This document shows positions 47,740-63,798 of a stretch of DNA of 64,000 nucleotides, piece after piece. This DNA is from Candidatus Flavonifractor intestinipullorum. GTDB lineage: Bacteria; Bacillota; Clostridia; Oscillospirales; Oscillospiraceae. The notes under the pieces are model-generated. The model did not search any database and had not been told where the DNA came from. It saw only the letters and a list, made by a program, of their open reading frames with translations. The DNA lies in NCBI GenBank assembly GCA_019118925.1, contig DWYC01000088.1, positions 1-64,000 on the forward strand, written 5' to 3'. Numbering within the stretch: the first letter of the stretch is position 1; every line of letters starts with the position of its first letter. A program made the position numbers and the translations under genes.

Positions 47740-47890
47740 AATCCGTAACCTCCTCAGAAGGGGAGAACCCCTTTTTTTCATTGTATCCTGTTTTCCCCCG
47801 GCATGCAAGAGGGCGGGACGCTTTTCTCTCCGGGAGAATTCCGTCACAGCTGCCAGACGAGGAACATAGGATACTCCGGAGGTCATGCCT

Positions 47891-48658
47891 ATGAATATCT
47901 ACCAGAATAAAAATATGCCGCAGGACCGTGCGTGCAGGCCCTGTGTCCCCACTTGCTGCCCGCCGTCTCCGGCGCCGTGCAACGTCAGTATTGTTCCCAT
48001 TCCCGGCCCCACGGGGGCGACGGGTCCCACCGGAGTGACGGGTCCCACGGGGGCGACGGGTCCCACCGGCCCGGCGGGCTCTGCGGGCGTTACAGGTACA
48101 GCGGCCACTGTGACGGTAGGTACGGTGACCACGGGGGAGCCGGGCAGTCAGGCCGCCGTCACCAACAGCGGCACATCCCAGAATGCGCGGCTGGACTTTG
48201 TGATTCCGCAGGGCGCCACCGGCAGCGGGGCCGGCCCGGCGGAGTTCCTCAACGCCTACTCCACGCCGGCGCAGGCGGGGAGCGCGGGGGCAGCCCTGAT
48301 CTTTGACCGCAACGGCGCGCAGAATGGGACGGCGGTGACTCACGCCAACAACTCCGCCAATGTGGTCCTCCAGAAGCCGGGATATTACCGGGTTTCGTTC
48401 CAGACGGCCATCGGACCGGCCTCGGGCGTGACGTTCCCCTTTTCGGTGCTGCTGTACTTGTCCCAGGATGGAACCGGAGTACCGGGGGCCAGCGTCCGCC
48501 ACACCTTCCACACCTCCGCAGACATCAGCAATGTGGCGCTTTCCCAGATTGTGGCGGTTACCACCGCGCCCTCCACGCTGAATGTGGTGGGAGGGAGCGG
48601 GAGTTTCCTCTACTCAGACGCGGGCATCAGCGTCAACCAGCTCAGCGGCCTGTCCTGA
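47891..48658 (+). CDS. Collagen-like repeat protein (BclA-like exosporium/surface architecture)
   Basis: GPTGATGPTGVTGPTGATGPTGPAGSAG triplets, C-terminal beta-rich domain; GGAGG before ATG 47891. Confidence 0.8.
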   Translation: MNIYQNKNMPQDRACRPCVPTCCPPSPAPCNVSIVPIPGPTGATGPTGVTGPTGATGPTGPAGSAGVTGTAATVTVGTVTTGEPGSQAAVTNSGTSQNARLDFVIPQGATGSGAGPAEFLNAYSTPAQAGSAGAALIFDRNGAQNGTAVTHANNSANVVLQKPGYYRVSFQTAIGPASGVTFPFSVLLYLSQDGTGVPGASVRHTFHTSADISNVALSQIVAVTTAPSTLNVVGGSGSFLYSDAGISVNQLSGLS

Positions 48659-48857: not shown

Positions 48858-49871
48858 ATGAAACGCGATATGAAACAGTGGATGAAAGACGTCGTCGACG
48901 CGCCCGTAAAGCGGGCGGTTCCCGTCCTGTCCTTTCCGGCGATCCAGCTCATGGGGATCACGGTCCGGGAGCTCATCTCCAGCAGCGACGCCCAGGCCAA
49001 GGGCATGAAAATGGTGGCCGACCGGGTGCCGACCGGCGCTTCGGTGAGCCTGATGGACCTGTCGGTAGAGGCCGAGTGCTTCGGCTCTCAGATCCGCTTC
49101 TCCGATGACGAGGTGCCCACCGTGGTTGGCTCGGTGGTCTCCTCTCTGGAGGAAGTGGAGGCCCTTTCCGTTCCCGCGGTGGGCGCGGGCCGCACGGGCA
49201 TTTACATTGAGGCCATCCAGAAGGCGGTGGACCTGATTCAGGACCGCCCGGTTTTTGCCGGTGTGATCGGCCCCTTCTCCCTGGCCGGCCGTCTGATGGA
49301 CGTGACCGAGGCCATGATCTACTGCTATGAGGAGCCCGAGATGGTGGCCGCCCTGCTGGACAAGGTCACCGACTTCCTCATCGCCTACTGCAAGGCCTAC
49401 AAAGAGGTGGGGGCCAACGGCGTGGTGATGGCCGAGCCTCTGGCCGGCCTGCTCTCGCCCGCTCTGGCCGAGGAGTTCTCCGCTCCCTACGTCAAGCGGG
49501 TGGTGGACGCCGTTCAGGACGACAACTTCTCGGTGGTCTACCACAACTGCGGCAACGCCGCCATCCAGATGATCGACTCCATTCTGGGCACCGGCGCGGC
49601 CATGTACCACTTCGGCAACGCCATCTCCATGAAGGAGATGCTCCAGCACATCCCCGCCGGTACCATCGCCATGGGCAACGTGGACCCCGCCGGGCAGCTG
49701 CGCAACGGGACGCCTGAGTCCGTCCGGGCCGAGACCCTGCGCATCATGGGCGAGTGCTGCGACCACCCCAACTTCGTCATCTCCTCCGGCTGCGACATCC
49801 CGCCCATGTCCCCCTGGGAGAACATCGACGCCTTCTTCCAGGCGGTGGACGAGTTCTATCAGAAGAAGTAA
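48858..49871 (+). CDS. Uroporphyrinogen decarboxylase-family corrinoid methyltransferase (MtaA/CmuA-like)
   Basis: UroD-type fold motifs; Zn-ligand-like HNCGN and SSGCDIPPMSPWENIDAFF. Confidence 0.85.
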   Translation: MKRDMKQWMKDVVDAPVKRAVPVLSFPAIQLMGITVRELISSSDAQAKGMKMVADRVPTGASVSLMDLSVEAECFGSQIRFSDDEVPTVVGSVVSSLEEVEALSVPAVGAGRTGIYIEAIQKAVDLIQDRPVFAGVIGPFSLAGRLMDVTEAMIYCYEEPEMVAALLDKVTDFLIAYCKAYKEVGANGVVMAEPLAGLLSPALAEEFSAPYVKRVVDAVQDDNFSVVYHNCGNAAIQMIDSILGTGAAMYHFGNAISMKEMLQHIPAGTIAMGNVDPAGQLRNGTPESVRAETLRIMGECCDHPNFVISSGCDIPPMSPWENIDAFFQAVDEFYQKK

Positions 49872-50015: not shown

Positions 50016-50654
50016 TCAGGCCACGCAGAAGGAAAGGGCGGCCGCAGCAGCGGCGGTGGCGTCGGGGGTGTAGCAATCGGCGCCGATGGACTCGGCAAAG
50101 CTCTCGGTGACGGGGGCGCCGCCCACCATGATCTTGACCTTGCCGTTGAGATCGGACTGATGCACGGCGTCCACCACGGTCTTCATCTCGCCCATGGTGG
50201 TCGTCAGCAGGGCGGAGCAGGCGATGATCTTGGCGTTGTGCTCCTTGGCCGCGTCGATGAACGCGGAGGCGGGCACGTCCACGCCCAGGTCCACCACTTT
50301 CAGGCCCTTGCCCTCCATCATCATGCGCACCAGGTTCTTGCCGATGTCGTGCAGGTCGCCCTTCACGGTGCCCAGAATGACGGTGCCCTTCTCCTCCACA
50401 CCGGCGGCCACCAGCAGGGGACGCAGGACGGTAATGCCCTTGTTCATGGCCCGGGCGGCCACCAGAACCTCGGGCACAAAGACCTCGTTGTTCTTGAACT
50501 TGCCGCCGATGATGTTCATACCGGCCAGCAGGCCGTCCTCCAGAATCTCCTGGGGAGAGATGCCCTCGTCCACGGCCTGCTGTACCAGTTCCTTGACCTT
50601 GGGGGCCTTACCGGCCTGCAGATAGGTGCTGATCTCGTTGAGAATTTCGCTCAT
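50016..50654 (-). CDS. Methyltransferase-associated corrinoid (B12-binding) protein
   Basis: GDLHDIGKNLVRMMMEGKGLKVVDLGVDVPASAF (DxHxxG motif), N-terminal cap helix region. Confidence 0.92.
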   Translation of the reverse strand: MSEILNEISTYLQAGKAPKVKELVQQAVDEGISPQEILEDGLLAGMNIIGGKFKNNEVFVPEVLVAARAMNKGITVLRPLLVAAGVEEKGTVILGTVKGDLHDIGKNLVRMMMEGKGLKVVDLGVDVPASAFIDAAKEHNAKIIACSALLTTTMGEMKTVVDAVHQSDLNGKVKIMVGGAPVTESFAESIGADCYTPDATAAAAAALSFCVA

Positions 50655-50686: not shown

Positions 50687-52222
50687 TTAAGATTCGGATG
50701 CAAAGAGCATGTGCTCCATGTAGTACTCGGAAAACAGACGGTTACCCGACAGGGGAATCTCTCTGGCCCGGCTCCGAATGGCCGAGAGGGTGTCCAGAAA
50801 CGCCTCATCCAGCAGTACCGCCGCCGCGCCGGCCAGGGCCGCGTTGCCCAGCACCCGGGCCCGGGGGGCCAGAACAGGGGGGAAGAGCCCAATGCGGGCG
50901 GCGCTGTCCCGATTCATATGGTGCCCAAACCCGCCGGCAATATAGAGGCGGTCCACTTCTTCCGGCGTCAGACCGGCCTCTTCCAGCAGCGTGCAGATGC
51001 CGGCGCACACGGCGGCTTTGGCCAACTGAATCTGGCGAATGTCCTTTTGTGTAAGAAAGACCTGCGTACCCGGGATTTGCCAGGCAGAGAGCTCCTCCCG
51101 CTGGGTGATGCCGGGCGCCTCGTCGTCCAAAAGGCCCGTCTCATCCATGATCCCCAGCTCCAGCAGAGCGGCCGCTGCGTCCAGCACGCCCGAGCCGCAC
51201 AGACCTTCCGCCGCTCCGCTGCCCAGGACCTCCACGGTGACCCCGCCCCGGCCGTCGGGCCGGATGGCGGTAATGGCGCCGGGAGCGGCCTGCATCCCGC
51301 AGGAGAGGCCCGCGCCTTCAAAGGCCGGGCCCATGGCGGTGGAGGCGCAGTAGAGCGTCCCGCCGTGGGCGAGCACAATCTCGCCGTTGGTACCCAAATC
51401 GATGAGTAAAGCGGTCTCCTCCGGATGGTCCATCAGTCCGGAGGCCAGGACAGCGCAGGTGATATCGGCCCCCACATAAGCGCCCAGACAGGGCGGGAGA
51501 TAGGGGGGGACGCCGCCGAGCGTACAGGCGCCGGGTCCGCCGAAGAGGGAGACCGGGACAAACGGGGCCACCGCGATGCCGCGGGGGTCCAGCCCCTCCC
51601 AGAAGTGGAGCATCGTAGTGTTGCCGGTGACCACCGCACAGTCGAGGGCGGAAACGCCGGCCTGGGCCATGCAGGAGGCGGCCATGCGCTCCAGCTGCTG
51701 GTGAATGCACTCCGTCAGGGGAGCGACCCCGTGCTGATTGGAGTGCTCGATGCGGGAGATCACATCGGCCCCGAAACCGGCCTGCTCGTTGGCGCCCAGG
51801 GCCTCCCCGTAAATCCGGCCGTCCTCCAGCCGGTAGAGCTGTGCGGCCACGGTGGTGGTACCGATGTCCACCGCCAGTCCCCAGCCCTTTTTGCGCAGGG
51901 TATGGGCGGGGAGAACTACGGCGGACAGGGTGTCGACCTCTTGCTCAGGCAGCCACACCGACGCATCGCCCAAAACCTGGACATAGCAGGCCAGACGAAT
52001 GCCCTGCGAACGCTCCTCCGGAGAGAGACGTTCCGCCTCCTCCGCGCAGGGAGGGGCGAGCTGCCCGGCACAGCGCACCTTACACTTGCCGCAGGTGTGG
52101 TTGCCGCCGCAGGGCATCGGAAAGGGGAGCCCGGCCTCCAGCAGGAGGGAGCGCAGAGACGGCCGGCCCGAGAAGGTCCGCTGTATTTGCTCGCAGCCGC
52201 GATAGAACGTGATAACCGACAT
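50687..52222 (-). CDS. RamA-like ASKHA/2Fe-2S corrinoid activation protein
   Basis: N-terminal CGGNHTCGKCKVRCAG ferredoxin motif; GLAVDIGTTTVAAQLY, LYIAGGFGHHMNRDSAARIGLFP. Confidence 0.9.
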   Translation of the reverse strand: MSVITFYRGCEQIQRTFSGRPSLRSLLLEAGLPFPMPCGGNHTCGKCKVRCAGQLAPPCAEEAERLSPEERSQGIRLACYVQVLGDASVWLPEQEVDTLSAVVLPAHTLRKKGWGLAVDIGTTTVAAQLYRLEDGRIYGEALGANEQAGFGADVISRIEHSNQHGVAPLTECIHQQLERMAASCMAQAGVSALDCAVVTGNTTMLHFWEGLDPRGIAVAPFVPVSLFGGPGACTLGGVPPYLPPCLGAYVGADITCAVLASGLMDHPEETALLIDLGTNGEIVLAHGGTLYCASTAMGPAFEGAGLSCGMQAAPGAITAIRPDGRGGVTVEVLGSGAAEGLCGSGVLDAAAALLELGIMDETGLLDDEAPGITQREELSAWQIPGTQVFLTQKDIRQIQLAKAAVCAGICTLLEEAGLTPEEVDRLYIAGGFGHHMNRDSAARIGLFPPVLAPRARVLGNAALAGAAAVLLDEAFLDTLSAIRSRAREIPLSGNRLFSEYYMEHMLFASES

Positions 52223-52963: not shown

Positions 52964-53164
52964 GGCACTCACTCCTTGCATTTTTCTCTCCATGACACCG
53001 CAGTCATCTTGCATTGAAACGGATTTTCCTGTAGAATAAGGGAAAGAAACGATGTCGCGGATATCCCGACCTTTATTATACCGGAAGCCGTGCCGGATCT
53101 CTTATAAAAAATCCACTTATTTCGCAAAGTTTTGCCCGGATCCGGCCAGGAGAGAGGAGCGACC

Positions 53165-54436
53165 ATGAGACCGCGGGAAGAATTTGATGTGGTGCTGTCC
53201 AAGGACTGCGCCCGGGCTTTTTCCACTTCCACCGGTCTGGGGAGCGTGGTCTCACTGGCCGACGGAGCGCCGCTGGCCGCGTTTGGCGGCTACCACTGCG
53301 AAAACTGCCGGATCTGCGCCCTGGCGGGAAAGCAGCGCACCCTGTGCGTACAGAGCCATATTTACGGCATGAACGAGGCCGAGCGCTTCGGCGGGAAATA
53401 CGTCTATTTCTGTCCCATGGGGCTGACCTGCTTTACCTCCCCCATTGTGGGCACCGACAGCACGGAGGCCAAAATCACGGTGGGGCCCTTCTTGATGGTG
53501 GACCGGCAGGACTACATTCACGACGATCTGCTGCCCAAGATCCAGGGGGAGTATGACCTGGCGGAACTCACCGCCGAAGTGGAGAAGCTCCCGGTGGTCC
53601 CGGCCGCCCGGGTGGAGGGTATTTCCTCCCTCCTGTTCATGGCGGTGGGCTTTATGAACAACGTCTGGGCGGCCAACCACATGCTGGAGGTGCAGGAGTC
53701 CTACTCCATCCAGAAGCAGGTCTCCTCCTATCTGGCCACGTTAAAAGGCGAAAAGCAGCCGCCGCCCTATCCTCTGGACCTGGAGAACGAGCTGCTGGAC
53801 AGCATCAGCCACCTGGACCGGGAGAAGGCCAACCGCTGCCTCAACGAGCTTTTGGGCTATATCTTTTTTATGGGCGGCAATTTTCAGTTGGCCAAATCCC
53901 GCATTTCCGAGCTGCTGGTGCTCATCTCCCGGGCGGCCATCACCGGCGGGGCCGACGCACAGACCATGCTCCTCATGACCCACGACTATTTGCAGATCAT
54001 TCCCCGCATCACCAGCATGGACGAGCTGTGCAGCTGGCTGGCCAAGGCCATGAACCGCTTTATGGACAACCTCTTCCAGTTTGCCGATGTGAAGCACGCC
54101 AATGTGATTCACCACGCCACCCAGTACATCCGCGCCCACTACGCCGAAAAAATTACGCTGGACAACGTGGCCCGGGAGGTCTATCTCTCGCCCACCTACT
54201 TCAGCCGCATTTTCCGGCAGGAGACGGGGGTGACCTTCAACGCCTACCTCAACGCCGTGCGCATTGAGCAGAGCAAAAAGCTCCTCAACGACCCCTCCGT
54301 GCGGCTCATCGACATCTCTCTGATGGTGGGCTTTGACAACCAGAGCTATTTTACCAAGGTGTTTAAGAAAATCACCGGCCTTTCCCCGCTGCAATACCGG
54401 GAAAAGAAGTGCAAAGGCTTTCAGCATATCAATTGA
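53165..54436 (+). CDS. AraC-family regulator with N-terminal PocR-type sensory domain
   Basis: CENCRICALAGKQRTLCVQSHIYG Cys cluster; C-terminal ITLDNVAREVYLSPTYFSRIFRQETGVTFNAYLNAVRI. Confidence 0.88.
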   Translation: MRPREEFDVVLSKDCARAFSTSTGLGSVVSLADGAPLAAFGGYHCENCRICALAGKQRTLCVQSHIYGMNEAERFGGKYVYFCPMGLTCFTSPIVGTDSTEAKITVGPFLMVDRQDYIHDDLLPKIQGEYDLAELTAEVEKLPVVPAARVEGISSLLFMAVGFMNNVWAANHMLEVQESYSIQKQVSSYLATLKGEKQPPPYPLDLENELLDSISHLDREKANRCLNELLGYIFFMGGNFQLAKSRISELLVLISRAAITGGADAQTMLLMTHDYLQIIPRITSMDELCSWLAKAMNRFMDNLFQFADVKHANVIHHATQYIRAHYAEKITLDNVAREVYLSPTYFSRIFRQETGVTFNAYLNAVRIEQSKKLLNDPSVRLIDISLMVGFDNQSYFTKVFKKITGLSPLQYREKKCKGFQHIN

Positions 54437-54504: not shown

Positions 54505-55539
54505 ATGTCCACCCTGAAAGAACGTAACGCGGAACGCCTGAGAAAGAGCATCGCCGGAGAGAAGGCGGACGGCCACGCCGTATTCAACTACTACACCTAC
54601 CCCTTCTTCCACGCGGTGAGCAAAGTGCCCCTGAACGAGTACTTCCACAACCCCAAGGTCATGTTCGAGACCCAGCTGGAGGTCTTGGAGCAGCTGGACG
54701 GCTGCGGCAACCTGGCCCCCGACGCCGGCGCCGTGGCCGAGTGCAGCGCCCTGGGCGGCAAGGTCCGTTTCGACGAGCACGGCTTCATCTCGGTGGCCCC
54801 CGCCGAGATTGAGGAGCTGGACGACGTGCTGGCCATCAAGCCCGGCGACCCCTATGGGGACAACTATATGCGCATCGCGCTGGAGACCCTGGAGTACATG
54901 GTGGACCACTGCCCCGAGGGCTACAAGGTCAACCCCCACGCCATCATGGGCCCCTTCACCGTGGGCGCCCAGCTGCGGGGCATCAGCGACTTCTGCGCCG
55001 ACACCATTGCCGAGCCTGAGCTGGTGCAGGCCATCCTGGACCTGGTCATCGAGACCCAGATCAACTTCCTGAAGGCGCAGGAGAAGATTTTGGGCGAGCC
55101 CCTGCACCACATCCTGGTGTGCGACGACCTGTCCGCCTTCCTCAGCGAGCAGGCCTATCGGGACATCATCCTGCCCTCCTATGAGAAGCTCTTTGCCGAG
55201 TTCCCCCATACTCAGCGCTGGCTCCACAACGACTCCACCGCCCGCCACATCGCCCCGGACATCTCCAAGGGCGGCATGGTGGCCTGGCAGTATCATCCCA
55301 GCATCACGCCTCAGGACGCCCTGACTCTGACCGAGGGCAAGGTCACCCTGCTGGGCGGCCTGAACCCGGTGGAGCTGGCCGGCCTCACCGAGGAGGAGAC
55401 CGTGAAGAAGTGCAACGAGGTCATCGACTCCTTCGGCGGCAACAACCGCTGCGTGCTGGCCGCCGGCGGCTCCATCAACCAGGTGCCGCTGGTCAACCTG
55501 CGGGCCATGTTCCGCGTGGCCGACGAGCGGAAGATCTAA
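54505..55539 (+). CDS. Uroporphyrinogen decarboxylase-family protein, Zn-ligand-less paralog
   Basis: UroD-like fold with LLGGLNPVELAGLTEEETVKKCNEVIDSFGGNNRCVLAAGGSINQVP; HNDST replaces HNCGN. Confidence 0.82.
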   Translation: MSTLKERNAERLRKSIAGEKADGHAVFNYYTYPFFHAVSKVPLNEYFHNPKVMFETQLEVLEQLDGCGNLAPDAGAVAECSALGGKVRFDEHGFISVAPAEIEELDDVLAIKPGDPYGDNYMRIALETLEYMVDHCPEGYKVNPHAIMGPFTVGAQLRGISDFCADTIAEPELVQAILDLVIETQINFLKAQEKILGEPLHHILVCDDLSAFLSEQAYRDIILPSYEKLFAEFPHTQRWLHNDSTARHIAPDISKGGMVAWQYHPSITPQDALTLTEGKVTLLGGLNPVELAGLTEEETVKKCNEVIDSFGGNNRCVLAAGGSINQVPLVNLRAMFRVADERKI

Positions 55540-55565: not shown

Positions 55566-55606
55566 AAAACAGCGCCCCTGCCGCTTCAAGCGGCAGGGGC
55601 GTTTTG
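55566..55606. terminator. Bidirectional intrinsic terminator
   Basis: AAAACAGCGCCCCTGCCGCTTCAAGCGGCAGGGGCGTTTT. Confidence 0.85.
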
Positions 55607-55638: not shown

Positions 55639-56190
55639 TTATTCCTGCCCTTCCGGTCCGGCGGGCTGGGAGGGCGTCTGAACGGCCAGCAGAGCGTCGT
55701 GGCTGCGGACCAGCCACTCCTCGGTGATGCGCCAGCGGCCCTCGACCTTCTCCACCCGGCACTCGCACATGGAGAAACACTTTTTGCCGTCCTCGGCCAG
55801 AGACTTGCCGGTGGGAGGGCCGTAGGCGGTCCAGCCGGTGTTGCGCCAGGAGAAATTGGTGCACTGGCCGAAGCTGTACCCGTCCTCCTCGTTGCCCTCG
55901 GCGAAGATGTCCACAAACTCCACCGTCTGGTCGGGGAAGGAGCGGATAGTGGACAGGGTAGCCGCCACCGAGGCCTCGGCGCCCACGCTGTCCCCGTCGC
56001 AGCTGTGCACCACCGTGGAGTCGCAGTAGAACTCATAGATGGCGCCGATGCACTTGTACTGCCAGATCCACTCGGTGTAGGCCTTGAAGAGCTCGGCCAC
56101 CTCCTCGGGGAATTGCAGCTTGCACTGGCGGCAGAACTCCGCCACTTTTTTGCGGCCCTCGCTCATGTCGTGGAGCGTCATCTGAATCAT
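55639..56190 (-). CDS. SnoaL/NTF2-like protein (paralog A)
   Basis: IGAIYEFYCDSTVVHSCDGDSVG...FPDQTVEFVDIF...YGPPTGKSL...VEGRWRITEEW; ATGA overlap with upstream gene. Confidence 0.75.
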   Translation of the reverse strand: MIQMTLHDMSEGRKKVAEFCRQCKLQFPEEVAELFKAYTEWIWQYKCIGAIYEFYCDSTVVHSCDGDSVGAEASVAATLSTIRSFPDQTVEFVDIFAEGNEEDGYSFGQCTNFSWRNTGWTAYGPPTGKSLAEDGKKCFSMCECRVEKVEGRWRITEEWLVRSHDALLAVQTPSQPAGPEGQE

Positions 56191-56717
56191 GCTCTGGTTC
56201 CTCCTTCCGCGTCGCTGGTCTGGACCTGCCGCAGCAGGCTTTCCGAGTCGGAGTTGACCTCAAAGGGGATTTTCCAGGCGCCGTCCACCTGCTTGAGATA
56301 GAGCATGGACAGGTTCAGGCAGCGCTCCCCCAGAGACTTCCCGGTGGCGGGGCCGTTGGGGCTGAAGCCCAGATTGGTGCCCTTCAGGCGCATGCGGCGA
56401 AAGACCTTCCAGCAGTCGGGGGCGGCGCGGTAGACGATGATGTGGTCGATCTCGGTGTGCAGGTCAGGGAAGGCGGCCTCCAGCTCGTTGATCTGGATGG
56501 CGATCTCATCCGGATGAGAGTAGCGGATGCCGCTCTGTTTGTGGTACTCCACCTCTTCGGGGTAGAAGTCGTAGACCAGGCCTACCATCTTATAGTCGTA
56601 GATGAGCTTAGTCAGGCAGGTGATGAACTCCCGCACCTGGTCCGGGGTGTCCAGAGTGGGGGAGTAGACCACGTCGCTCATGTGCCAGATGGCGTCCATT
56701 TTTTCGTCGGATTTCAC
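56187..56717 (-). CDS. SnoaL/NTF2-like protein (paralog B)
   Basis: VGLVYDFYPEEVEYHKQSG...FPDLHTEIDHI...GPATGKSLGERCLNLSMLYLKQVDGAWKIPFE. Confidence 0.75.
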   Translation of the reverse strand: MKSDEKMDAIWHMSDVVYSPTLDTPDQVREFITCLTKLIYDYKMVGLVYDFYPEEVEYHKQSGIRYSHPDEIAIQINELEAAFPDLHTEIDHIIVYRAAPDCWKVFRRMRLKGTNLGFSPNGPATGKSLGERCLNLSMLYLKQVDGAWKIPFEVNSDSESLLRQVQTSDAEGGTRA

Positions 56718-56745
56718 GCAAACACCTCATTTCAAATGGATGAAT

Positions 56746-56781
56746 AAAAAGCGGGCCGCATATCAAGGGATATGCGGCCCG
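56746..56781 (-). terminator. Intrinsic terminator between SSS symporter and paralog B
   Basis: Minus strand CGGGCCGCATATCCCTTGATATGCGGCCCGCTTTTTATT. Confidence 0.8.
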
Positions 56782-56801
56782 TTCGAGAAAAACAGTCTGG
56801 A

Positions 56802-58478
56802 TTACTTCTTGGCCTTGGCGGGGCTCATGTTCTCACGGATCCAGGCGGAGACGCGGCCGCGGACAAAGAAGTCCTCGAACACGCCCTGCTGGGCGGTATG
56901 CTCCGCATACCACTTCTTCTCGGTGAGGAGGGAGACCACGACCACGGTGATGATGCCGCAGAAGATGGCGGGGAAGCCCAGGAAGAAGCCGCCCCAGACA
57001 TAGCGCACGCCGGCGGCGTACAGGCCCAGGTACACGGCCTCGCCCACGAGCATGCTGGCGACAGCGCCCTGGGGAGTGGCCTTCTTCCAGAACAGGCCGG
57101 CCACGATGGTGGGAGTAACCAGCACCATGCCGTTGGTGGCCATATCGGTCAGGAGGGTCAGCAGAGGCAGCTCGGTGGTGGCGAAGCAGAAGCCGATGAT
57201 GCCCAGGATGACCACGATGACACGGGTACGGAACACTTCCTGCTTGGCGTGAGCCTCAACGCGGTTGTCGATGGTGTCCAGGCTGGCGCCGCCGTCGGCG
57301 CCGATGGTGGGCTCACCCTTCTTCAGGCGCAGCATGTTGGTGAGCAGGTCGTTGGACACCAGGCCGGACAGGGAGATCAGCGTGGAGTCCAGGGTGCCCA
57401 GAGCGGCAGCCAGGATGAAGGTGCAGACGATGCCCAGCATGATGGGGCTGCCCGCCATGGAGCACAGCTCCAGAATACCGGCCTCGGGGTTGGAGACGGT
57501 CACGCCCTTGGCCACGGCGCCCAGAACGACGACGCCGAAAAGGCCGTAGATGCTCAGCCAGATGCCGGAGGCGGCGGTGGCGATGGAGGACTTCTTAACC
57601 TCGCGCACGTTCTTGGCCAGGCAGATGCTCATGAAGTTGGAGGGGTAGACCAGCATAACCAGGGTGCCCAGAATGACGTTGGAGACCCAGTAGGGAATGT
57701 TGAAGTCGCCCACGTTCTCCAGGACGTAAATCTGCTCCTGGGTCTGACCGGCATACAGAGTCTGAGCGGCCTGATCGGCGGAGTGGAACATATCGCCGAC
57801 ACTGCCGTCGAAGTAGTAGCCGACCAGATAGCCCAGCACCACCAGGGAGCCGCCCAGCATAACGATAGCCGAGAAGCTGTCCACCATGGACACCGAGTGC
57901 ACGCCGCCGGTGGCCACATAGATGATGATGATGGTGAAGGCGATGGCGGAGCCCACGATGACGGGCATGGTGTCGCCGGAGGCCAGGTTCATGGCGATAC
58001 CCAGAGTACGGATCTCGGTGATGAGCCAGATGATGTTGAAGCAGACAATGATCAGAGACACAAAGAACTTCACCCAGCGGCTCTGATACCGCAGCTCCAT
58101 GATGTCGGGCAGGGTGGAGAGGCGGTACTTCTTGGCCAGGGGCCAGATCTTCTCGCTCAGGAAGAACATCACCATACCGGTGGCGGCACAGGTGACCACC
58201 GAGTTCAGGCCGGCCACGCCGTAGTTGTAGAAGAAGCCGACGCGTCCGGTGAAGGTGGTGCCGGAGTAGAACGTAACACAAGTAATCAGGAAGACCACCA
58301 CGGCGTTGCGGGACTTGCCGCCGGTGAGGTAATCCTCAAAGGTCTGGTTTTTCTTACGCTCGATTGCCTTTTTGGAGAAGCCCTGATACCAGGCCATCCA
58401 GATGACAACGGCGATATAGGCCAGCATGATAATAAACGGAATTGGGCTTTGAATCAGTTCAGCCTGCATTGCATTCAT
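56802..58478 (-). CDS. Sodium:solute symporter (SSS) family transporter
   Basis: Multi-TM; FYSGTTFTGRVGFFYNYG, ATGGVHSVSMVDSFSAIVMLGGSLVVLGYLVG, AAALGTLDSTLISLSGLVSNDLL. Confidence 0.92.
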   Translation of the reverse strand: MNAMQAELIQSPIPFIIMLAYIAVVIWMAWYQGFSKKAIERKKNQTFEDYLTGGKSRNAVVVFLITCVTFYSGTTFTGRVGFFYNYGVAGLNSVVTCAATGMVMFFLSEKIWPLAKKYRLSTLPDIMELRYQSRWVKFFVSLIIVCFNIIWLITEIRTLGIAMNLASGDTMPVIVGSAIAFTIIIIYVATGGVHSVSMVDSFSAIVMLGGSLVVLGYLVGYYFDGSVGDMFHSADQAAQTLYAGQTQEQIYVLENVGDFNIPYWVSNVILGTLVMLVYPSNFMSICLAKNVREVKKSSIATAASGIWLSIYGLFGVVVLGAVAKGVTVSNPEAGILELCSMAGSPIMLGIVCTFILAAALGTLDSTLISLSGLVSNDLLTNMLRLKKGEPTIGADGGASLDTIDNRVEAHAKQEVFRTRVIVVILGIIGFCFATTELPLLTLLTDMATNGMVLVTPTIVAGLFWKKATPQGAVASMLVGEAVYLGLYAAGVRYVWGGFFLGFPAIFCGIITVVVVSLLTEKKWYAEHTAQQGVFEDFFVRGRVSAWIRENMSPAKAKK

Positions 58479-58504
58479 TGCGTGTTCCCTCCCTCTTTCT
58501 TAAA

Positions 58505-58711
58505 TTAGTCGAAGGTATTGTCGTTGCGCTCCCACCAGAAGAGGAACCAGGTGAGACCCACCAGAAGAGCACCGATGACCCAGATACCTACAAAGAAGCA
58601 GGGGAACGGGCCGATGTACCCCTCGCGGTTCCACACATTCATCAGAGGGGGAATTACGCCGCAGCCGAACAGGTAGGTAATGGCCAGAAGTACAGTAATA
58701 ACCTTACGCAT
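58505..58711 (-). CDS. Small membrane protein, probable SSS partner subunit
   Basis: 68 aa, two predicted TM helices (MRKVITVLLAITYLFGCGVIPP...), just upstream of the SSS gene. Confidence 0.75.
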   Translation of the reverse strand: MRKVITVLLAITYLFGCGVIPPLMNVWNREGYIGPFPCFFVGIWVIGALLVGLTWFLFWWERNDNTFD

Positions 58712-58766
58712 GAGTGATATCTCCTTTCTTCGCTCTTATCGATGTGCTGCGGGAGCTCGAATCAGA

Positions 58767-59312
58767 TCACTCCAGGAGACGGCGGTAGGCATCGTTGCTG
58801 CGGATGCTCGCCTCCTTCCCCACGCGCCACTTGCCGTCGATGAACTGAATCCAGCACTCGCACATCTCCAAATCCTCATAGGGCTCGAAGCTCAGGTCTT
58901 TGCCGGCGCCGTGGGGGCCTACGCCGCCCTTGCCGCAGCCGGTGTTGTAAACGACCTGGCCGAACCGGTAATTGTCGCCGTCCCGGACACAGTGAATGTC
59001 CACAAACTCCACATTCAGGTCGGGGAACTGGGCCAGGGAGCGCAGGGTGTCCCAGACCACGTGATCGGAGCCCTCCAGATTGGCGCCGCCGTCCCGCTCT
59101 TCCTTCAGACCGTCGAAGTAGAAGTCGTAGACACGGCCCACCTGCTTGTGCTTCCAGATCAGCATGGTGTAGGCCTCGAACAGGTCGGCGATCTCCTGGG
59201 GCTCTTTATAGGTGCAGTTGCGGATGACATCCTCGTAGAGGGCGCGCTCGGCCATGATCTCATCTACGGTCATCTCCGTGATTTTCTTATTCTCGGTGAT
59301 ATTGGGCAGCAT
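58767..59312 (-). CDS. SnoaL/NTF2-like protein (paralog C)
   Basis: VGRVYDFYFDGLKEERDGGANLEG...FPDLNVEFVDIHCVRDGDNY...HGAGKDLSFEPYEDLEMCECWIQFIDGKWRV. Confidence 0.75.
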   Translation of the reverse strand: MLPNITENKKITEMTVDEIMAERALYEDVIRNCTYKEPQEIADLFEAYTMLIWKHKQVGRVYDFYFDGLKEERDGGANLEGSDHVVWDTLRSLAQFPDLNVEFVDIHCVRDGDNYRFGQVVYNTGCGKGGVGPHGAGKDLSFEPYEDLEMCECWIQFIDGKWRVGKEASIRSNDAYRRLLE

Positions 59313-59361
59313 AGGATGTTACCTACCTTTCTTCCGTCAAATTTGAAATGATATGCAGCGC

Positions 59362-59880
59362 TTACTCCTGCTCGGGCTTGCAGGCGGCCTTGATGCACTC
59401 CATGCTGTACATGGTGAACTCCCGCACGATGCGCCAGGTGCCGTTGATCTTGCGCACGGTGGCCATGCTCATGGTGATGCACTCCTCGGGCTTGAGCGCG
59501 CGCATGGTGGCGGGGCCGTAAATGCTCTGATTGCGGTTCGTGCCCTCCATGGTGTAGTACTGCCACACCTTGTACTCGTCGCCCTTCTTCACGGCGAAGT
59601 AGTCCCGCATGTGGATCTTCAGATCGGGGAACGCGGCGGTGAACTTCAGGGCCTCCTGCATGATGGCGTGGGCCCCCTCGTAGGCGTCGCCGTTTTCCCG
59701 GCGGAGCACTGCGTCGTCGGCGTAGATATCGTAAACGCTGCCGATCCACTTGTGGTTGTAGATCAGCTCTTTGTAAAGGCGGAAGTACTCCGCGATGGAC
59801 GCCTCGTCGGTCAGCTCCATGGACTTGACCTTCTCGTTCACTTCCATCATCTCGTTGTAAAGCCGGTCTGCCTTATACAT
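59362..59880 (-). CDS. SnoaL/NTF2-like protein (paralog D)
   Basis: IGSVYDIYADDAVLRRENGDAYEG...FPDLKIHMRDYFAVKKGDEY...YGPATMRALKPEECITMSMATVRKINGTWRI. Confidence 0.75.
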   Translation of the reverse strand: MYKADRLYNEMMEVNEKVKSMELTDEASIAEYFRLYKELIYNHKWIGSVYDIYADDAVLRRENGDAYEGAHAIMQEALKFTAAFPDLKIHMRDYFAVKKGDEYKVWQYYTMEGTNRNQSIYGPATMRALKPEECITMSMATVRKINGTWRIVREFTMYSMECIKAACKPEQE

Positions 59881-59934
59881 TGCGCCATGACCTCCTAGAA
59901 AAAATAAGTTTTCATTTTATCTCAATGGCTGCGC

Positions 59935-61044
59935 TCAACCATCGATTCGGGGGGAAGCTGCGGGGACGTTCGAATTGCGCAGGCGCTCCTGAATCAGGAC
60001 GATGGCCACGCCGCACGCACCGGCGGAAAGTTTGGCCACAATCATGGGGACAATCATATCCGGGCGCACGCCGGCGGTGTAACCCAGGTGATCGCCCAGA
60101 GCCGCGCCCACGGTGATGGCCCAGACGGTATTGATGATCGTGCCTTTTCGATCCATGTCTTTGATCATCGTAAAGACGGGGACCGAGTTGGCCAGAGCGA
60201 AAATCAGACCGGCTGTACTGGTGGAGTCGAGGACCATGTGCCTTCCGGCCGCCTTCAAGGGCCTGTCCAGCACCTTGAGCAGGATGGACAGCACCGGGAA
60301 CGTGCCCGCCAGGACAAGGGCAATGTGGCCCACCGTGGACATGGCCTCCGAGATGGGGGTCATGCCCGGGAGAATGACGGCGCCGGTGATGGCCTCAAAC
60401 CCCGCGCAGATCAGTCCGAAGTAGATGAGGGCGGTTACCGCCCGGCCGAACCACAGGGAACCGGTCACCATGGCGTTGGGGGCCAGACGCAGGCCGATGG
60501 CCAGCAGAACAGAGATGACAATGATGGGAACCATGTTGCGGAGAATAAACAGGAAGGGGAAGCCGGCCACCAGACCGCCGAGGATGCTGCCGATGGGGGT
60601 GACGATAAAACCGATCAGCAGGCCCTGTGCGAACCAGGGGTGCTTCTCCTTGGGGATAATGCCCAGCCCCACCGGGATATGAAAGACCAGAATCACGCCG
60701 AACATGGAGGCCACGATGGCGCCGCTGAGAAGTCCGGCCCGCTCGTCCACTGCCAGTTCCATTGCCAGGTCGTAGCCGCCCATATCGTTGGCCAGGATAG
60801 CGCCGAACATACCCGGGTCCACGCCGATGGCCTGAAAGAACGGGGTGATAACGGGGCCCAGGTACCGGCCGATCAGAGGAGTCAGACAGATGATACCCGC
60901 CATGCCCAGGGCCAGGGTACCCATGGCCTGGAAGCCCTCCTCAAACTTGGGCGCCAGGCCCAGCTTTCCACCGAAAATTTTGTCGAGGCCGCCCAAAATA
61001 AACCCCACGGCAACAATCCAAAGGATGATCTGATCCAGAGACAT
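59935..61044 (-). CDS. EutH-like ethanolamine-type transporter
   Basis: ILGGLDKIFGGKLGLAPKFEEGFQAMGTLALGMAGIICLTP, GMFGAILANDMGGYDLAMELA, AALGDHLGYTAGVRPDMIVPMIVAKL. Confidence 0.85.
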   Translation of the reverse strand: MSLDQIILWIVAVGFILGGLDKIFGGKLGLAPKFEEGFQAMGTLALGMAGIICLTPLIGRYLGPVITPFFQAIGVDPGMFGAILANDMGGYDLAMELAVDERAGLLSGAIVASMFGVILVFHIPVGLGIIPKEKHPWFAQGLLIGFIVTPIGSILGGLVAGFPFLFILRNMVPIIVISVLLAIGLRLAPNAMVTGSLWFGRAVTALIYFGLICAGFEAITGAVILPGMTPISEAMSTVGHIALVLAGTFPVLSILLKVLDRPLKAAGRHMVLDSTSTAGLIFALANSVPVFTMIKDMDRKGTIINTVWAITVGAALGDHLGYTAGVRPDMIVPMIVAKLSAGACGVAIVLIQERLRNSNVPAASPRIDG

Positions 61045-61140: not shown

Positions 61141-61160
61141 AACAATTACAAATCGGGAAC

Positions 61161-61200
61161 GTTTGAAGAATAAAGACAACATTTGAAGAATAAAGACAAA
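61161..61200. repeat. 20-bp tandem direct repeat upstream of the -24/-12 promoter
   Basis: GTTTGAAGAATAAAGACAAC / ATTTGAAGAATAAAGACAAA, back to back. Confidence 0.9.
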
Positions 61201-61559: not shown

Positions 61560-62615
61560 ATGGCAGAAAGAGGGCACCGGAACAGCGGCGTGACAGCCAC
61601 CGACGTGGCCCGGCGAGCGGGCGTGTCTCAATCGACCGTCTCCCGGGTGTTGAATCCAAATGGAAAGGTAAAGGTCCAGGAAGAGGCCCGGCAGCGGGTG
61701 CTCCAGGCGGCCCGGGAGCTGGGATACCGCCCCAACGCCATCGCGCAGACGATGATCTCCGGCCGTTCCAAAATTGTGGGGGTGGTGGTGTCCGACTACT
61801 TCAACGTCTTTTACTACCAGATGCTCCAGCTGCTGACCAACCGTCTGATGGCTGCGGGACTCCAGGCCATGGTGTTCTCCTCGCCGCCCCGGTCGGACAT
61901 CAACGAGCTGCTCCAGCGCTTCTACCGCTATCAGGTGGACGGGGTGATTGTGACCTCCTCGGCGCTCTCCCACCATGTGACCGAACAGGGCATCCAGAGG
62001 GGGGTGCCGGTGGTGCTCATCAATGGATATTTGCCGGATATGGGGGTCAACGCTGTGCAGAGCGACCAGTTCGGCAGCGGTATCCTTATGGCGGACTACC
62101 TGGTGGGGGTAGGACACCGGCGCTTCGCCTATGTGAGCTCCGAGAACAGCCCCCACCGCAACTACATGCCCCGGCAGGAGGGCTTCCTGGAGGGCCTGCG
62201 CCGCCACGGCGTGGATACCTGCCGGGTGATTCCCGGGGGATACAGCTACCAAAGCGGCCTGGAGGTGGGGGAGAGCCTGGCCCGGGAGGCGGACATGCCC
62301 GACGCCATTTTCTGCTCCGGCGACTGGAACGCCATGGGCGTTCTGGACGCCCTGCGGCGGCACTCCCGGCGGGAGATCGGACGGGAGGTCTCGGTCACCG
62401 GCTATGACACCCCGATCCTCACGGGGCTGGAGGCCTATTCCATCACCGGCCTGACCCAGGACATGGACGGCCTGTGCAGCGACGCGGTAGAGCTGCTGGA
62501 AACGCTGATGGAGGACCCGGAGAGACCGCCGCAGCTTCTGACCCGGCCCATGCATTTGACGATTCGTTCTTCGTCCCGCCCGCTTCCCCGGGAAATGGAG
62601 CAGAAAAAGGGCTGA
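61560..62615 (+). CDS. LacI-family transcriptional regulator
   Basis: VTATDVARRAGVSQSTVSRVLNPNGKV HTH; GYRPNAIAQTMISGRSKIVGVV; periplasmic-binding-type sensor. Confidence 0.93.
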   Translation: MAERGHRNSGVTATDVARRAGVSQSTVSRVLNPNGKVKVQEEARQRVLQAARELGYRPNAIAQTMISGRSKIVGVVVSDYFNVFYYQMLQLLTNRLMAAGLQAMVFSSPPRSDINELLQRFYRYQVDGVIVTSSALSHHVTEQGIQRGVPVVLINGYLPDMGVNAVQSDQFGSGILMADYLVGVGHRRFAYVSSENSPHRNYMPRQEGFLEGLRRHGVDTCRVIPGGYSYQSGLEVGESLAREADMPDAIFCSGDWNAMGVLDALRRHSRREIGREVSVTGYDTPILTGLEAYSITGLTQDMDGLCSDAVELLETLMEDPERPPQLLTRPMHLTIRSSSRPLPREMEQKKG

Positions 62616-62651: not shown

Positions 62652-62706
62652 GAGAGTATCTCAGATAAGAATACGTATTCACACAATTTAGTTGGAGGTG
62701 CCTCTC

Positions 62707-63798
62707 ATGGATGATGTGAAGATCTATTATGGCGATCAGTCTCAAGTCAACCCGCTGGGCCGCCGGAATTATGACGAATACCTGACTTATACCGAGAAGA
62801 AACAGGAGCTGCCCGGATTTGACCGGGAGTATCTGGACATTGTAGACTATATTATCAAGATCACGCACCGGATCTGGGAGGAGAAGGGCGTGGGCATCAT
62901 TTACGACACCTATGCCAACAACTGTGTGGTCCATACGGGCGACGGCGCTTCGGTGGGCTCGCAAAACGTGGTGTCCAATACGCTCTCGATGCTCCACGCG
63001 TTCCCGGACCGCCGCTCCATGGCGGAGGACGTCATCTGGTCGGAGGACACGCCGGGCGTGTTCCTCTCGTCCCATCGGATTCTCTCCACGGCCACCAATC
63101 TGGGCGAGAGCAATTTCGGCCCGGCCACCGGGAAGAAGGTCTATTTCCGCACCATCGCCGACTGTGCCTGCACGGAGAATCTGATTTTTGAGGAATGGCT
63201 GGTACGGGACAACCTCTGGCTGGTCAAGCAGCTGGGCCTGGACCCCTGGGCTCTGGCCCGGCAGATGGCCGCGGGCCAGAGCGCGAAAGCGCCCGCCGGC
63301 CGGGACGAGTGCATGGAGGGGCAGTTCCTGCCCGAAGTGTATACCGCCAAGGATGATTCGGTGGGCGAGCAGCTGCTGGAGGCCCTCAACGACATCTATA
63401 ACCGCAAGCTGATTAACCGGGTGTGCGATCTGTACGCCGGAAACGCAGTGGTCCACACCGTCTGCAATCAGGATCTGGTGGGGCACGACGAGATTCAGGG
63501 GTCCATTGTGAGCCTGCTGGCCTCCTTCCCCAACAGCCGCCTGCTGGTGGACCGGGTCACCTGTAACTACCATGAGGAGGACAGCTCCTGGCACGTCTCG
63601 GCCCGCTGGCGCCTGCGGGGCCTGCACGAGGGCATCGGCCGCTTCGGCGCCCCCACCGGCAAGCAGGTGGACATTCTGGGCATTACCCAATACCGCTTTG
63701 TCCAGGGCAAAGTAGTGGAGGCCTGGGAGCTCTATGACGGACTGGATGTGCTCCGGCAGCTCTGCCTGGGGGACGGGCATCCCGCCGAGGAGATCTGA
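62707..63798 (+). CDS. Twin-domain SnoaL/NTF2-like protein (paralog E)
   Basis: N-half GIIYDTYANNCVVHTGDGASVG...GPATGKKV; C-half RVCDLYAGNAVVHTVCNQDLVG...FGAPTGKQV; TTGGAGGTG upstream of ATG 62707. Confidence 0.75.
   Translation: MDDVKIYYGDQSQVNPLGRRNYDEYLTYTEKKQELPGFDREYLDIVDYIIKITHRIWEEKGVGIIYDTYANNCVVHTGDGASVGSQNVVSNTLSMLHAFPDRRSMAEDVIWSEDTPGVFLSSHRILSTATNLGESNFGPATGKKVYFRTIADCACTENLIFEEWLVRDNLWLVKQLGLDPWALARQMAAGQSAKAPAGRDECMEGQFLPEVYTAKDDSVGEQLLEALNDIYNRKLINRVCDLYAGNAVVHTVCNQDLVGHDEIQGSIVSLLASFPNSRLLVDRVTCNYHEEDSSWHVSARWRLRGLHEGIGRFGAPTGKQVDILGITQYRFVQGKVVEAWELYDGLDVLRQLCLGDGHPAEEI

Follow-up and report, generated by a model that had tools for sequence, protein, structure and literature searches.

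What does a gut bacterium do with four small proteins of one fold that are encoded between and beside two transporters? This question is raised by the first 64,000 nucleotides of contig DWYC01000088.1 of Candidatus Flavonifractor intestinipullorum (GenBank assembly GCA_019118925.1), which we refer to as the window. At 55639-61044 its minus strand encodes, in order, a EutH-family transporter, the NTF2-like proteins NTF2-D and NTF2-C, a small membrane protein, an SSS-family sodium/solute symporter, and the NTF2-like proteins NTF2-B and NTF2-A. An earlier note on this DNA placed these seven open reading frames correctly. The gaps between them are indeed short (26-84 bp), and NTF2-B and NTF2-A do overlap at ATGA. 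The note also proposed an undescribed catabolic system with two transporters; our literature searches found no paper describing such a system, and none relevant to the gene combination, the paired NTF2 subfamilies, or the operon considered below. We propose, tentatively and with somewhat less than even confidence, that the cluster is the uptake and first-processing arm of a dispersed, anaerobic, B12-dependent system that acts on a polyhydroxylated, O-methylated compound resembling a sugar, the likeliest being a cyclitol of the methyl-inositol type. In this system a heterodimeric NTF2 protein would act as lyase or isomerase.

Paired NTF2-fold proteins in four genomes

Three of the four small open reading frames match SnoaL or SnoaL_2 weakly in Pfam, and NTF2-C, the most divergent of the four, matches no Pfam family. 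As NTF2-C has no such match, its structural model is the hardest test of the fold. The model adopts an NTF2/cystatin-like fold (pLDDT 85, pTM 0.81), and its Foldseek matches include LinA, PhzA/B, SnoaL-type cyclases, the CaMKII hub, and Nxf1-p15. A sequence search of the PDB with NTF2-D returned spurious matches only, such as the estrogen receptor. The Pfam matches, the NTF2-C model, and Foldseek thus agree with the fold that the earlier note had assigned, while the motif that it described as common to all four is present approximately but not exactly.

The note had also described four strongly divergent paralogs. NTF2-C is the most divergent, but the four are not unrelated to one another: they comprise two alpha subunits (NTF2-A and NTF2-C, 35% identical) and two beta subunits (NTF2-B and NTF2-D, 30% identical). 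Across all loci, alphas are closest to alphas and betas to betas. An alpha gene adjoins a beta gene in 14 of 14 pairs, with varying gene order, in four genomes: the window genome, Butyricicoccus pullicaecorum, a Dysosmobacter metagenome-assembled genome (MAG), and an Oscillibacter MAG. Two of these pairs lie elsewhere in the window genome, on contigs C88 and C94. Between the distance matrices of alpha and beta the correlation is r = 0.78, a value reached by none of 20,000 permutations. In the maximum-likelihood tree the alphas form a clade (100/99), the betas are monophyletic or close to it, and the alpha and beta sub-clades correspond to each other; in one matched sub-clade, all four pairs adjoin EutH. 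An extra alpha-like gene is present at one Oscillibacter locus. The invariable pairing and the matching trees support the A-B and C-D partnerships and the hetero-oligomer that the note had suggested, and each pair may form a physical heterodimer.

The order EutH-beta-alpha-membrane protein-SSS, together with a divergent unit of a LacI regulator and a tandem NTF2 protein, is syntenic in B. pullicaecorum, which belongs to another family of the order. Between the two genomes NTF2-C is 97% identical, with dN of 0.014 and dS above 1, and is therefore under extreme constraint. Recent horizontal transfer or contamination was rejected as the source of this identity because silent sites are saturated. 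The beta subunit, EutH, SSS, membrane, and tandem proteins are 74-87% identical, and LacI only 31%. Synteny and a dN far below dS place the conservation of this first unit beyond chance.

Distribution was surveyed in draft genomes (the window MAG is 81% complete), with genes outside the window called by a simple codon-usage script. The gene set is absent from nine of nine genus-mates, and was found in one other of 150 family genomes (G025, as a C88-type contig fragment), in one of 87 genomes of the Butyricicoccus family, and, among 81 genomes around Dysosmobacter, in the two already-known carriers only.

Several pairs have other neighbours. At L012 and L016 (contig C88 of the window genome, G000) and at L006 (contig C99 of G025), the pair adjoins a flavodoxin-like gene without a transporter; the beta gene and flanks of this C88-type pair recur almost unchanged in a genome from a different genus, which suggests recent transfer or shared contamination. 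In Dysosmobacter (L130:8029-11094), a pair without a transporter follows a membrane pyrophosphatase-like gene and directly precedes a GGGtGRT-family gene (PF14057). In Oscillibacter (L133:7997-13137), a pair adjoins an SSS symporter and genes of the membrane dipeptidase family (M19), relatives of which also occur at L054 and L057.

Co-conserved corrinoid and catabolic genes

Next to the cluster, the window encodes two UroD-family methyltransferases (UroD1 and UroD2), a corrinoid protein, its activation protein, and an AraC/PocR regulator (Table 1). Orthologs of UroD2 (74-90% identical) occur in all three other genomes with alpha/beta pairs, and AraC/PocR orthologs (61-80%) adjoin UroD2 in Dysosmobacter and Oscillibacter. 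The corrinoid protein adjoins UroD2 in three genomes, and the corrinoid genes of Dysosmobacter and Oscillibacter are orthologs of the window module (53-90%). As such, the link to a corrinoid module that the earlier note drew from co-location is conserved in both genera, where the module lies within the same gene run or adjacent to it. The ligand motif of UroD2 is H-N-D plus Gly, with H-x-D and Gly likewise in its orthologs, whereas that of UroD1 is H-N-C plus Cys; the UroD proteins of loci with tandem NTF2 genes also carry Asp at the first Cys position. In the UroD superfamily, His-Cys-Cys marks S-methyltransferases, and O-methyltransferases replace Cys with carboxylate or non-coordinating residues (PMC10418091). 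Therefore, the simplest reading is that the methyl donor is an O-methyl compound and that UroD1 is the thiol-side enzyme. UroD2 has the ligands expected of a UroD-type O-demethylase (MT I), which would be its putative activity.

A catabolic operon travels with the pairs. It encodes an HpaI aldolase, a 2-hydroxyacid dehydrogenase, an IolB-like protein (KduI/IolB family), an IolM-like zinc dehydrogenase, an IolN-like protein of the creatininase family, and a UlaG-like hydrolase with a metallo-beta-lactamase fold. The IolN-like gene is present in four of four pair-bearing genomes, each time flanked by the other five. In Oscillibacter a collinear run comprises corrinoid activase, corrinoid protein, HpaI, 2-hydroxyacid dehydrogenase, IolB/KduI-family protein, metallo-beta-lactamase-fold hydrolase, zinc dehydrogenase, and creatininase-family hydrolase, and continues with EutH, beta, alpha, a TRAP transporter, an iron dehydrogenase, and two more alpha/beta pairs; AraC/PocR-UroD2 is divergent from this run. 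The same catabolic run occurs in Dysosmobacter, where UroD2, AraC, corrinoid protein, and UroD1 adjoin an alpha/beta pair. In B. pullicaecorum, UroD2, TRAP, and the catabolic run lie on a different contig from EutH-beta-alpha-membrane protein-SSS. In the window genome, contig C94 carries the run; its neighbours there are two LacI genes, an alpha/beta pair, an SSS symporter, and a further double-SnoaL protein.

Close homologs of the IolN-like gene occur in only two of 251 genomes of the family. One genome (G016, 80% complete) has the gene, and the family search found no alpha/beta pair in it; G025, with its C88-type fragment, gave no IolN-like match in the search of the 251. With these two exceptions the association is strong, not perfect. 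Beside the IolN-like operon on C94 (L017:11303-16626) are genes for a 3-hydroxyacyl-CoA dehydrogenase, a CoA transferase, and an HpaB-family protein, and ETF/acyl-CoA dehydrogenase-like genes follow further on. We read the HpaB-family gene as 4-hydroxybutyryl-CoA-dehydratase-like, and a link of these CoA genes to butyrate formation is possible.

The tandem NTF2 protein that is divergent from the cluster has at least 135 relatives in the contigs searched, from Bacillota, Chloroflexi, Proteobacteria, and others; it served as the search query since the six-domain alignment A1 was too divergent for a pattern scan. Neighbours within 10 kb were counted for 80 of the 135 relatives (L029-L108; e.g., L038, L047, and L055) and comprised LacI (42 loci), a second double-SnoaL family (41), sugar-type ABC transporters (about 26), HisD (20), SDR (20), bicupin (18), HpaI (17), MetE-like (13), and UroD (5) proteins, with TonB or SSS transport in place of LacI/ABC at some loci. 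The second double-SnoaL family (about 337 amino acids, cluster c2) often lies beside an SSS symporter in Bacillota. A single locus of Natroniella acetigena encodes HpaI, 2-hydroxyacid dehydrogenase, IolB-, IolN-, UlaG-, and IolM-like proteins at 37-51% identity to the gut operon, and also includes a tandem NTF2 gene and UroD. Thus, NTF2 proteins, HpaI aldolase, alcohol oxidation, and methyltransferases co-occur across phyla. An IunH/PfkB/ADPRH block near tandem genes of Chloroflexi was rejected as part of the system, being convergent and confined to one lineage. No description of the two-domain NTF2 family in such neighbourhoods was found in the literature.

A candidate pathway and its rivals

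In the pathway that we propose, EutH and SSS would import the substrate or substrates, UroD2 would move an O-methyl group onto the corrinoid protein, which the RACo-type activase would keep active, and UroD1 would hand the methyl group to an acceptor. The C94 operon could then work up the ring, or the product of its oxidation, by means of an IolM-like dehydrogenase, IolN-like ring hydrolase, UlaG-like hydrolase, IolB-like isomerase, 2-hydroxyacid dehydrogenase, and HpaI aldolase; the Iol-like enzymes and HpaI suggest an order of oxidation, ring opening, isomerisation, and retro-aldol cleavage. These partners, together with LacI, point to a polar sugar- or cyclitol-like substrate. Each alpha/beta pair would be one heterodimeric enzyme that acts by proton abstraction (dehydration, beta-elimination, or keto-enol isomerisation), the several pairs per genome may be specificity variants, and the tandem fusion may be a related single-chain version. 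HpaI-class aldolases usually require a 2-keto-3-deoxy acid. Inspection of the gene runs showed no recognised dehydratase besides the candidate NTF2 proteins, and it is therefore the pair that most plausibly carries out an elimination or isomerisation.

A bolder version, which we consider unlikely as a whole, is that alpha (invariant CxC) and beta (invariant Asn), both without the SnoaL dyad, form a new class of heterodimeric NTF2 enzymes. These would catalyse the key elimination or isomerisation in an undescribed gut pathway that depends on B12 and consumes pinitol or other O-methylated cyclitols, and the many pairs per genome would be stereo-specific variants. A literature search found no paper on pinitol demethylation. 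If true, the system would extend a large enzyme fold by a heterodimeric branch and give gut Oscillospirales a B12-dependent route for using methylated plant sugars. The gene list can be taken to the type strain Butyricicoccus pullicaecorum DSM 23266, where the pathway is testable.

Several observations weigh against our proposal. The window cluster and the catabolic operon lie on different contigs of the window genome. Linked inheritance without contact could produce matching alpha and beta trees and a correlation of 0.78 by itself, so that the pair moves as a unit without necessarily binding. The IolB-, IolM-, and IolN-like proteins are relatives, not assigned inositol enzymes, because all score under the curated NCBIfam cut-offs (the best matches of the Dysosmobacter copies to IolM, IolN, and IolB reach 217 of 450, 159 of 245, and 117 of 205 bits). 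The Butyricicoccus, Dysosmobacter, and Oscillibacter genomes each encode, at another place, a canonical IolD above its cut-off. Finally, the SnoaL-type catalytic dyad consists of His (THxG) and Asp (ExWxxxD), and only the C-terminal domain of the tandem protein keeps it (H312, D349); in alpha and beta both positions are replaced.

Dyad loss leaves room for a binding instead of a catalytic role, and makes BaiE-type catalysis in each paralog, for which the earlier note had offered a precedent, doubtful. The pairs could be ligand-binding heterodimers that hold or sense the imported compound beside its transporter, an alternative that we judge rather improbable. By manual count, 12 of the 14 pairs share a gene neighbourhood with a transporter (EutH, SSS, TRAP, or ABC), and non-enzymes such as the CaMKII hub and Nxf1-p15 stand beside enzymes among the structural matches of alpha. 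However, conserved polar residues are kept, being invariant in alpha (C33, Q119, C151, C153, and E167) and in beta (N115 and E154), the extreme conservation of alpha and the specificity-like duplications suit an enzyme at least equally well, and sensing and binding are already covered by LacI, AraC/PocR, and TRAP or ABC binding proteins.

Chances are slim that the substrate is a methoxylated aromatic (a lignan, flavonoid, or monolignol dimer) processed by corrinoid O-demethylation and by NTF2 lyases akin to LdpA and PcfL, the lignin-dimer lyases, which are NTF2-like. Aryl O-demethylases do exist in the UroD superfamily (PMC10418091), and C94 carries the HpaB-family and CoA transferase genes. 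Nevertheless, the shared operon combines Iol-like, HpaI, 2-hydroxyacid dehydrogenase, and UlaG-like proteins with no ring-reducing or aryl-CoA genes, and the tandem relatives lie beside LacI regulators and sugar-type ABC transporters.

It is likewise a small prospect that the genes make up an ordinary myo-inositol system of these gut bacteria, without a methylated substrate. The likeness to IolM, IolN, and IolB and the lack of a full-scoring IolD in the window genome would fit, and according to PMC12482443 the route from myo-inositol to butyrate in Dysosmobacter welbionis still awaits characterisation, a statement that keeps this alternative alive. Yet canonical IolD in three of the four genomes indicates another route for myo-inositol, and we therefore rejected it as the likeliest substrate; moreover, UroD2 in four genomes and the adjoining corrinoid protein in three would be left unexplained.

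The earlier note saw a substrate that is hydrophobic or a quaternary amine as imported and converted stepwise. Such a substrate, of a steroid/bile acid or betaine-like kind, would suit BaiE as an NTF2 dehydratase, EutH as named for ethanolamine, and corrinoid systems that demethylate betaines, but it is very improbable: in the shared operon we recognised neither an MttB-type methyltransferase nor bai-like, CoA-ligase, or amine genes, and the partner enzymes are of the sugar-acid/cyclitol type.

Window features and known systems

The earlier note described an operon-scale arrangement on one strand, but a terminator-like hairpin between SSS and NTF2-B indicates that EutH-beta-alpha-membrane protein-SSS and the B-A pair are probably separate transcription units, and the LacI and tandem NTF2 genes had been overlooked. 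EutH scores 427.6 against a cut-off of 482 for a curated NCBIfam EutH model, and is also under the cut-off for the three equivalog models; besides EutH, no eut genes were recognised near the cluster in the window annotation. The small membrane protein is a probable small partner of the SSS symporter. The window LacI is 52% identical to the LacI adjoining another alpha/beta pair in the same genome. No convincing palindrome was found, and a LacI operator was rejected. The divergent EutH/LacI promoter region contains two adjoining 20-bp direct repeats at 61158-61197 (AACGTTTGAAGAATAAAGAC, 95% identical), a possible regulator site. Farther away, positions 47885-48658 (+) encode a collagen-like protein with GPTGATGPTG repeats, by appearance of the spore-surface or exosporium type.

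Table 1. Positions of the features discussed (window coordinates unless a locus is named)
Feature	Position	Strand	Remarks
UroD1, UroD-family methyltransferase	48858..49871	+	PF01208; thiol-type H-x-C...C motif; 82% in Dysosmobacter
Corrinoid (B12-binding) methyl carrier protein	50016..50654	-	PF02310/PF02607; 84-90% in Oscillibacter/Dysosmobacter
Corrinoid activation protein (RACo/ASKHA)	50687..52222	-	PF14574; 53% to member of Oscillibacter gene run
AraC regulator with PocR sensory domain	53132..54436	+	PF10114
UroD2, UroD-family putative O-demethylating methyltransferase	54505..55539	+	PF01208; H-x-D, without Cys
Terminator-like hairpin 3' of NTF2-A	55573..55601	-	Consensus match only
NTF2-A, alpha subunit	55639..56190	-	ATGA overlap with beta; 45-47% to Oscillibacter alphas
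NTF2-B, beta subunit	56187..56717	-	PF07366 (E 1.4e-5); beta subfamily; 49% to one Oscillibacter beta
Terminator-like hairpin between SSS and NTF2-B	56752..56781	-	13-pair stem and T-run; consensus match only
SSS-family Na+/solute symporter	56802..58478	-	PF00474 (E 2e-23); 81% to B. pullicaecorum counterpart
68-aa membrane protein	58505..58711	-	No Pfam family; synteny kept, 71-74% identity
NTF2-C, alpha subunit	58767..59312	-	No Pfam match; predicted NTF2 fold, pLDDT 85
NTF2-D, beta subunit	59362..59880	-	PF07366 (E 2e-7); beta subfamily; partner of 58767-59312
EutH-family transporter	59935..61044	-	PF04346 (E 5e-119); 86% to B. pullicaecorum counterpart
LacI-family regulator, divergent from cluster	61560..62615	+	PF00356/PF13377
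Two-domain (tandem) NTF2/SnoaL protein, 368 aa, divergent from cluster	62692..63798	+	PF07366 (E 2e-29); model pLDDT 93
Second double-SnoaL family, example	L017:6318-7331	-	
Second double-SnoaL family, example	L031:6381-7391	-	
Second double-SnoaL family, example	L035:12537-13550	+	

Among known systems, corrinoid O-demethylases and mlp clusters share with the window UroD methyltransferases, a corrinoid protein, and a RACE/Ram activase (PMC10418091). Here, however, one O-type and one thiol-type UroD are joined to NTF2 and sugar-acid genes, and as the window corrinoid genes are divergent they do not constitute an mlp cluster by the published definition. The Thermotoga-type inositol pathway (IolM and IolN), together with IolB, supplies the best NCBIfam matches of three shared-operon enzymes, but apart from the low scores the operon adds HpaI, a UlaG-like hydrolase, corrinoid methyltransferases, and NTF2 pairs. 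The SnoaL-like polyketide cyclase/ester cyclase family (PF07366) is alike in fold, in weak-to-good sequence matches, and in the His and Asp of the tandem C-terminal domain. In contrast, alpha and beta occur as obligate-looking pairs in catabolic loci, with invariant Cys (alpha) or Asn (beta) in place of the dyad. Lsd19 has two NTF2 domains in one chain, and this epoxide hydrolase (PDB 3rga and 4rzm) is the best Foldseek match of the tandem protein; it differs in its identity of only about 11%, in poor global superposition, and in serving polyether biosynthesis, not catabolism. PhzA and PhzB of phenazine biosynthesis, which Foldseek matched to alpha, are likewise adjacent NTF2 proteins, but they belong to another pathway, show about 16% identity, and are close paralogs, whereas alpha and beta are deep sister subfamilies.

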